Assembly (NCBI RefSeq): GCF_029267515.1
Contig: NZ_JAJUIS010000004.1
Location: 186,001 to 250,000, forward strand
Length of the DNA: 64,000 nucleotides
Reading direction: 5' to 3'
From: Seleniivibrio woodruffii
GTDB taxonomy: Bacteria; Chrysiogenota; Deferribacteres; Deferribacterales; Geovibrionaceae
Shown here one piece after another: positions 28,061 to 62,835 of this stretch. Numbering within the stretch: the first letter of the stretch is position 1; each line of letters opens with the position of its first letter. The notes beneath the pieces were generated by a model. The model did no database searches, was not told where the DNA came from, and was given only the letters and a program-made list of their open reading frames with translations. The position numbers were made by a program, and so were the translations under genes.

Positions 28061-28114
28061 GGCATGAGACTGCTTCGGGCTGACACCCTTGCAGAGACAG
28101 GGCTTGCTTTAAAC

Positions 28115-28235
28115 TTGGCTTTTTGATGCAAGCACTACAAGGAAGATTTTTTGAGCGGGCTGCGAGCGTACATAAAAGTACGTGAGCAGTTCCGAAAAGA
28201 AGCTGACGCAGTAATGCGCCGCATATAAAAGCCAA
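28115..28235. repeat. Structured intergenic repeat, copy A
   Basis: A 121-base element closed by complementary ends TTGGCTTTT (28115-28123) and AAAAGCCAA (28227-28235), then ATGC with GCAT inside. The core hairpin is CTGC, GAG, CGTAC, loop ATAAAA, GTACG, TGA, GCAG (28160-28189). Copies at 54413 and 62709 keep this architecture with different but complementary stem sequences. It sits between the DsrE gene and the rpsI terminator. Confidence 0.72.
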
Positions 28236-28267
28236 TAAAAAAAAAGCCCGGCGATGAAGCCGGGCTT
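28236..28267 (-). terminator. Strong intrinsic terminator of rplM-rpsI
   Basis: Arms AAGCCCGGC and GCCGGGCTT with a 6-base loop. On the minus strand the hairpin is followed by a run of eight T. It lies 6 bases after the rpsI stop codon. Confidence 0.92.
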
Positions 28268-28273
28268 GTTGCA

Positions 28274-28663
28274 TTAACGTTTGGAGAACTGAGAAGACTT
28301 TCTCGCCTTCGGTTTACCGGGTTTCTTACGCTCGACTGCTCTGGAGTCTCTGGTAAGGAATCCTTCTTTTTTCAGTGCGGGACGGTTTGCTGCATCGAAT
28401 TCGCAAAGTGCTCTTGCGAGACCGTGACGAACTGCGCCTGCCTGTCCGCTTTTGCCGCCGCCCTTAACAGTGATGTAAAGGTCGAACTTGCCCTCAGCGC
28501 TGATAGTTGAAAGGGGCTGGAGGCTGATCATTGTGAGAGTAGGTCTCTCAAAATAAGCCTCAGGCTCTTTGCCGTTGATAGTGACAACACCTTTGCCGGG
28601 TTTGATGAAAACTCTGGCACAGGATGTTTTTCTTCTGCCTGTTCCGTATGTATAGTCAGCCAT
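28274..28663 (-). CDS. rpsI: 30S ribosomal protein S9
   Basis: A 129-residue ribosomal protein with typical N-terminal [14 protein letters not shown] and the basic C-terminal tail ending SSQFSKR, which reaches the P-site tRNA. The ATG at 28663 is chosen over an adjacent TTG because AGGAG is 7 bases upstream. It follows rplM in the same operon, the universal pairing. The only Cys-containing variation, TSCARV, is common. Confidence 0.97.
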
Positions 28664-28674
28664 CAATAGTCTCC

Positions 28675-54353: not shown

Positions 54354-54412
54354 TTTTTAATACTACATCATAGAGCAAAAGAGGGCAAGTGCAAGAACGA
54401 TATCTGTGAGAT

Positions 54413-54751
54413 GAGCAGGATGAGGAAGGATTTACACAGGACTGCGGGCATAAGGAATGTATGTGAGCAGTTCTAAGGAAGAACTGACGACATCATGCGG
54501 CAAAAGATAGCTTTCGCTGCCGAGATGCGAGCAGGATGAGGAAGGATTTACACAGGACTGCGGGCGTAAGGAATGTATGTGAGCAGTTCTAAGGAAGAAC
54601 TGACGACATCATGCGACAAAAGATAGCTTTCGCTGCCGAGATGCGAGCAGGATAAGGAAGGGCTTACAAAGGAGCTGCGAGCATATAAAAAATATGTGAG
54701 CAGTTCTAAGGAAGAACTGACGACATCATGCGACGCATATCGGCAGCGAAA
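54413..54751. repeat. Structured intergenic repeat, three tandem 116-base copies (copy C1-C3)
   Basis: Units begin at 54413, 54529 and 54645, each 116 bases apart. Each has the core CTGC, three bases, short variable stem, TGA, GCAG, and then a hairpin AGTTCT/AGAACT. The variable stem changes in step: CATA with TATG, CGTA with TATG, CATAT with ATATG. The last unit is closed by TTTCGCTGCCGA (54628-54639) and TCGGCAGCGAAA (54740-54751), and the same left arm occurs before unit 2. The 460-base gap between the TPR gene and cheV holds nothing else recognised. Confidence 0.85.
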
Positions 54752-62576: not shown

Positions 62577-62708
62577 AAATAGAGGTCTGTACCTTTTTCA
62601 CCAGTCATACAGAACAGAGCCTATGCCCGGAGAAATCATTGCAAATATGCTCCGCGGAATTCTTCTAACAGCAGAAGGGCTGCGTGACGAGCAAATATGA
62701 AATCGGCA

Positions 62709-62828
62709 TGGCTGTCAGACGCAATCAATTCAAGGCTACACGCAAAAAATATGCGCAGTGTACATAGTCAGTACATGAGCAATATTTTTTGCAGCGGCAA
62801 CGCAGAAGTGCGCCGCATATCACAGCCA
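62709..62828. repeat. Structured intergenic repeat, copy D
   Basis: A 120-base element closed by TGGCTGT (62709-62715) and ACAGCCA (62822-62828). Inside, GCAAAAAATAT (62742-62752) pairs with ATATTTTTTGC (62782-62792), and TGTAC with GTACA across loop ATAGTCA. It ends GCGCCGCATAT, as in copy A. It fills the gap between the EAL gene and lolA; the bases from 62577 to 62708 hold no recognised feature. Confidence 0.72.
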
Positions 62829-62835
62829 AGCAACA

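Follow-up and report, generated by a model that had tools for sequence, protein, structure and literature searches.

The window analysed here is a whole stretch of 64,000 nucleotides from Seleniivibrio woodruffii, and the question that it raises is what its short hairpin-forming elements are and how they came to their sites. A sequence-only reading of the window had proposed five copies at three intergenic sites, built on one plan, with stems that differ but stay complementary.

Hairpin elements of the window

Covariance models were built from Deferribacterota copies only (R1), from 119 Deferribacterota copies (R2) and from Bacteroidota copies (R3). The five copies at three sites are real; R2 matches all of them, on the + strand throughout. 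The elements and their parts are:

28115..28235, +: complete element, type A (GGGCTGC-GAG-CGTAC apex); R1 132, R2 127, Bacteroidota-only R3 96.7 bits
28115..28124, +: 5' outer arm TTGGCTTTTT, from the inverted repeat and the fold
28226..28235, +: 3' outer arm TAAAAGCCAA, from the inverted repeat and the fold
28138..28145, +: conserved loop I, 5' strand CAAGGAAG; near-invariant columns, CAAGG[A/C] across phyla
28203..28211, +: conserved loop I, 3' strand CTGACGCAG; near-invariant columns, [A/G]ACGCAG across phyla
28153..28154, +: tandem GA, 5' strand (partner GA 28194-28195), from fold and alignment
28164..28166, +: apical internal loop, 5' strand GAG (partner TGA 28183-28185), conserved in Deferribacterota, Bacteroidota and ERIC
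28167..28182, +: apical 5-bp hairpin CGTAC-ATAAAA-GTACG, with covarying pairs
28238..28270, -: rpsI intrinsic terminator (inverted repeat 28241-28252/28259-28270; terminator check), its T-tract abutting the 3' end of the 28115 element
28274-28666: S9 gene (rpsI)
54398..54512, +: array unit 1, without 3' outer arm; R2 61 bits
54514..54629, +: array unit 2, without 3' outer arm; R2 55 bits
54630..54749, +: array unit 3, complete with both arms; R1 113.5 bits, fold z -11
62708..62829, +: element of a different inner type (GCGCAG-TGTAC apex); R2 72, R3 61 bits

The intergenic siting holds as well: the two lone copies (28115 and 62708) lie beside rpsI and lolA-like genes, and the tandem array (54398-54749) is placed between a TPR gene and a CheW gene. 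The three outer stems that had been quoted for the elements stand for three loci and not five, because array units 1 and 2 at 54 kb each lack an intact closing arm on the 3' side.

Other repeats and remnants are found near the elements. Another short inverted repeat, likewise dispersed (GAGACTGCTTCGG...CTTGCAGAGAC), occupies window positions 28064-28101, just 5' of the 28115 element, and has at least 12 weak copies in congeners, often adjoining other copies of the hairpin element. Upstream of the 62708 element (62590-62700) there is a decayed remnant that resembles an AbiEi-like gene; at the same locus the congener G003 carries an AbiEi/AbiEii-like pair (AbiEii 8e-36; the AbiEi_4 match is weak and does not reach its cut-off), and an element copy comes after the pair. 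A further repeat (GAAGAATCTCTGC...GAGACTCTTCGC...CAGAGTGACGAA) flanks element copies at L047:836-990 and at the G004 orthologue of locus 62709.

Fold, covariation and the strand that folds

In alignment A1 (54 copies), the family is a single rod of ~121 nt on the + strand. It consists, in order, of the outer stem P1 (TTGGyGkTTA/TAAmCrCCAA), a 1x1 G-A, P2 (ATGC/GCAT), P3 (GCA/TGC, switching to GTT/AAC), another 1x1 G-A and P4, followed by loop I (AAGGA/TGACGCA), the hypervariable P5, a tandem GA step and P6 (GGGCTGC/GCAGTTC, with a conserved G-U), above which stand the apical GAG/TGA and a 5-bp hairpin. The loops CAAGG[A/C]…[A/G]ACGCAG, the tandem-GA step and the apical GAG/TGA over the 5-bp hairpin are fixed, while the stems drift. 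RNA folding at 28115 (-48.8 kcal/mol, z -5.6) and at 54630 (-57.9 kcal/mol, z -11.0) returns the plan read earlier from the letters, with a closing stem, a GC core, the GAG/TGA internal loop and a short hairpin.

The stems had been taken to covary, with the fold under selection. The window copies alone are thin evidence for such a family, and the genome-wide set settles the question. In A1, changes on both sides are seen in 33 of 43 pairs, double-changed cells number 265 against 61±9 in shuffles, and 90% of cells are paired, where sliding the partner leaves no more than 44%, so that double-sided changes stand far above both the shuffled and the slid controls. The finding named in advance as refuting the claim, no compensatory excess over a shuffled model, was looked for genome-wide and a clear excess was found instead. 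In a cross-phylum alignment of 74 sequences, 86% of cells are paired against 51% shuffled, but this alignment was fitted to the structure and A1 is the cleaner test of covariation.

G-U outnumbers A-C on the + strand, by 36:4 in the outer arms (MAFFT alignment) and by 271:90 over all pairs; it follows that the folding belongs to one defined strand. From simple deamination on the other, G-rich strand one would expect the opposite sign. The consensus rod is the minimum-energy fold of both 28115 and 54630 under RNA parameters, whereas DNA parameters give other folds. Of the earlier phrase 'RNA or extruded DNA', the first half is thus favoured, without being proved.

Within this common fold the copies vary. 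Several inner types share the outer parts, sometimes adjacent in one tandem array with the same arms (L048, L052, L056). In one genome (G071) the bodies differ by 8% and the arms by about 29%, the arms still pairing. The termini vary by genome (TTGG...CCAA, AAGTTG...CAACTT, GGAGC...GCTCC). In G098 (L196-L213), a 3'-truncated copy lies immediately upstream of most copies, in head-to-tail arrays, and the type of truncation is the same as in the 54 kb array of the window. An origin of the arms from the target was considered and set aside, in view of the genome-specific arm consensus and the absence of the arms from the empty site at 62709.

Copy number and distribution

Searching the host genome (2.83 Mb, 99.97% complete) with a covariance model, as the first reading had suggested, bore out a dispersed family, with 48 copies; with the 28115 copy as query, DNA similarity alone gives 20 matches. 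Three of four Seleniivibrio congeners have 40, 51 and 51 copies and the fourth has 2, the genomes of one sister genus differ from one another (18, 4 and 0), and in the Deferribacterota the family was found in 14 of 46 genomes of the order. It also occurs in the Bacteroidota. The first set of matches there was an Alistipes MAG (37 matches); further copies turned up in 19 of 61 Alistipes-family genomes and, at E<=1e-4, in 31 of 198 across the phylum, with up to 39 copies in one. Most Bacteroidota genomes surveyed carry no copy, which is also the null. As to carriage by phages, two pattern matches were seen in viral contigs, one of them with a weak model score (19 bits).

At single loci the copies are present in some species and absent from others. 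At locus 62709, the element is present in three species and the site is empty in two; at locus 28115, the position and the outer arms are kept in four species and the inner part is exchanged. Many copies are common to orthologous sites of the two closest species, and movement is therefore not frequent. Neither a clean target-site duplication nor an empty site exact to the base could be recovered; the flanks were checked and gave no consistent duplication.

Orientation at gene ends and on the replication strand

The copies are polar with respect to genes. In Deferribacterota, 69 copies have their 3' end turned toward the 3' end of a gene on the opposite strand, no more than 60 nt away, and 6 show the mirror arrangement (p 1e-14; the polarity p-values overstate independence, as ORF calls were heuristic and related congeners were counted together). 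The same arrangement is found in Bacteroidota (20 against 6, and 27 against 8 in a further set). The gap from the element's 3' end to the stop codon is mostly 0-18 nt. Under a strict criterion, 26 of 113 Deferribacterota copies touch an intrinsic terminator with their 3' end, against 2 of 113 on the mirror side, and at 28115 the abutted terminator is that of rpsI.

They are polar with respect to replication, too. Copies on one contig share a strand in 103 of 112 cases in Deferribacterota and in 54 of 59 in Bacteroidota, and in both 0 of 5000 shuffles were as extreme. The + copies occur where the GC skew is negative, i.e., the strand that folds coincides nearly always with the C-rich replication strand; Bacteroidota show the same sign against skew (p 0.007, read with the same reserve as to independence). 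For example, a contig of 1.28 Mb (G004:C3) has + copies at 200-244 kb, and all 14 copies listed beyond that, starting at 343 kb, are -; the skew reverses between 240 and 280 kb, and the copy strand flips with it. Genes on this contig are only about 60% co-oriented with replication, and gene direction alone is therefore no explanation of the strand bias. This polarity to both replication and gene ends is new and unexpected.

Kinship with ERIC

The ERIC core, CCAG-GAG-CTTAC-ATAA-GTAAG-TGA-CTGG, has the same plan as the window elements. In 100 kb of E. coli K-12, R1 matched nothing at E<=10 except two ERIC elements (E 3e-6 and 4e-6; the calibration of the covariance models was short), both full length and on the strand that carries the plan. 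R2 scored these two elements at 35 bits and ERIC of Pantoea, Klebsiella and Citrobacter at 44, 42.5 and 39.6 bits; one Serratia ERIC was missed by it. R3, which is not fully independent since its alignment was selected with R2, matched the window copies at E 2e-23 and ERIC at 37.6-58.1 bits (Pantoea being the best at 58.1; E down to 1e-12), and gave no non-family match at E<=10 over 306 kb.

The published E. coli ERIC consensus, in element orientation, reads GCAAGGCGGC...CCAACGCAGC (PMC2759123), and G030, from another Deferribacterota family, reads GCAAGGCGGC...AACGCAGC. Like ERIC, with its single rod hairpin of ~127 nt, the family is a multicopy and intergenic single rod (121 positions, 48 host copies), and it has the core loops CAAGGC...AACGCAG and GAG/TGA with an N-TAC hairpin. 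The TA-containing termini of ERIC (TATAC...GTATA) are not found; the termini are TTGG...CCAA and others. By its termini the family is not ERIC in the strict sense, and it is a cross-phylum variant with the same fold and loop set. As for gene-end polarity in ERIC itself, one copy was for and two were against among the few seen.

In the literature consulted, ERIC is confined to Enterobacteriaceae and Vibrionaceae and no mobilising enzyme is known for it (PMC2229807, PMC10969869); our literature searches found no relatives of the family reported outside Gammaproteobacteria. Rfam, searched at strict and permissive settings, gave no family match for the window elements. Its family RF02818 V_AS5 (Vibrio RNA AS5) matches E. 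coli ERIC (L101, L102) at 46 and 40 bits, below its cut-off, and is for this reason probably the Vibrio form of ERIC under another name; it gave no match to the window, Deferribacterota or Bacteroidota copies.

Proposed mechanism and alternative explanations

We consider it probable that the copies are a non-autonomous mobile element of an ERIC structural superfamily, recognised by structure, spread across phyla and inserted in a replication-polar way. Insertion during replication is suggested by the patchy high copy number, the presence and absence at single loci, the tandem arrays and the fixed replication polarity, and recognition of the folded strand by the stems being free while the loops are fixed. 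What identifies the unit would be its three non-canonical internal loops, which are conserved, together with the way in which one defined strand folds, and the stems, outer arms included, could drift freely provided that pairing is kept. A protein, probably host-encoded, may recognise the folded single strand (RNA or ssDNA, RNA being more likely), and the copy would be joined to DNA during replication with a fixed polarity, which would place the folded strand on the C-rich replication strand and make the element meet, with its 3' end, the 3' end of a transcription unit (at a stop codon or a terminator T-tract). One process that would fit is that the leading strand, or a nick in the gene's sense strand, is extended onto the element's 3' end as template; we infer this extension from the meeting of the 3' ends of element and transcription unit. 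Several results speak against the reading as a mobile relative of ERIC: the searches for a mobilising gene (Y1 transposase and RVT_1, below) came back negative, neither a clean duplication nor an exact empty site was seen, many copies are common to the two closest species, and ERIC has TA termini that the family does not share and showed no such gene-end polarity in its few copies seen.

The main rival, which we hold to be unlikely although it is compatible with mobility, is a structured RNA or 3'-end element that benefits the host by regulating mRNA decay or insulating transcription, with its orientation selected. It is in favour of such a role that copies persist at orthologous sites (as at 28115, where position and arms outlast the inner part in four species), that they hug stop codons and terminators, and that ERIC in Yersinia destabilises the upstream mRNA (PMC2229807, PMC10969869). 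Yet the distribution is very patchy within genera and families, and the abutting gene is antisense to the strand that folds well, which leaves its mRNA with the poorer folder. The strand also tracks replication (92%) more strictly than genes do (about 60%), which would not be predicted from a role in the 3'-UTR. Convergence, i.e., unrelated hairpins that separately gained GA-rich internal loops and so came to look like ERIC, would be helped by the distance between the phyla, by the differing termini and insertion polarity and by stems without a common sequence; we regard it as improbable, given that the same loops stand in the same order (CAAGG[C/A], ACGCAG, tandem GA, GAG/TGA with N-TAC hairpin) and that the models match full length in both directions with no other match in the sequence searched.

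Another hypothesis is that the arms stay complementary by template-switch repair, which perfects quasi-palindromes, and not by selection. Within one genome the arms do vary widely yet pair, around bodies that are almost identical, but such repair would erase the mismatches GAG/TGA, G-A and AA/GCA, which are the most conserved positions, and would give no one-strand excess of G-U over A-C, and this makes it very improbable. A REP/REPIN-type element moved by a RAYT (Y1) transposase, the lookup for which the sequence-only reading had called, would account for palindromic, intergenic copies at which no target-site duplication is seen. Y1_Tnp is absent from the host at 99.97% completeness and from all copy-rich congeners, and was not found in the copy-rich Bacteroidota tested either, and a RAYT is thereby refuted in these hosts, unless they have a Y1 enzyme too diverged for Pfam to recognise. 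RVT_1 (reverse transcriptase) is absent in G000 (the host), G001, G003, G011, G061, G071, G075 and G098. With Y1 and RVT_1 both absent, the enzyme behind the mobile element that we favour would be neither a RAYT nor a reverse transcriptase of the host.

A wider reading, which we put forward tentatively and at somewhat less than even chances, is a cross-phylum superfamily of fold-recognised mobile RNAs or ssDNAs, of which ERIC would be only the enterobacterial branch. Its members would be copied with fixed polarity into replicating DNA where transcription units end, through an undiscovered enzyme, probably encoded by the host and distinct from both RAYT and reverse transcriptase. ERIC has served as a typing marker for more than thirty years (gut-bacteria fingerprinting). 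Should it be one branch of a family found in three phyla or more, the patchiness would become a natural experiment for seeking a co-occurring gene, with dozens of genomes of 10-50 copies beside near relatives with none. The polarity to replication and gene ends offers a concrete lead on how such elements insert and spread, and the conserved loops define a ligand for pull-down.

Comparison with known systems

Integron attC sites are recognised by their fold, with stems free to vary and one strand used, and are alike in principle. They differ in that the family has the boxes in inverted order (5' GTTAGAT, 3' ATATAAC) and that its copies are dispersed singly at gene ends, unlike cassette arrays; read from the sequence, the box order RYYYAAC...GTTRRRY is not present, and attC was rejected. 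Group IIC introns and other terminator-linked inserters go in beside intrinsic terminators with a replication-strand bias, as the family does, but the host has no reverse transcriptase, there are no intron domains and no Rfam match, and the orientation to the terminator is opposite. A likeness to group II domain V was set aside on account of a different pairing, and one to the hammerhead (CTGACGA) on account of a GA that is unconserved between copies. REP and REPIN elements with their RAYT are likewise short intergenic palindromes at gene ends; the family is three times longer, its stems have no conserved sequence and its copy-rich genomes have no Y1 transposase.

ERIC (IRU, RU-1) resembles the family in size, rod hairpin, dispersed intergenic copies and the strand that folds, and shares with it the loops CAAGGC...AACGCAG, the tandem GA and the GAG/TGA over an N-TAC hairpin. 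It differs by its TATAC...GTATA termini, TA duplications (PMC2759123) and a conserved stem sequence, whereas the family has genome-specific termini, drifting stems, tandem arrays and a strong polarity to gene ends and replication.
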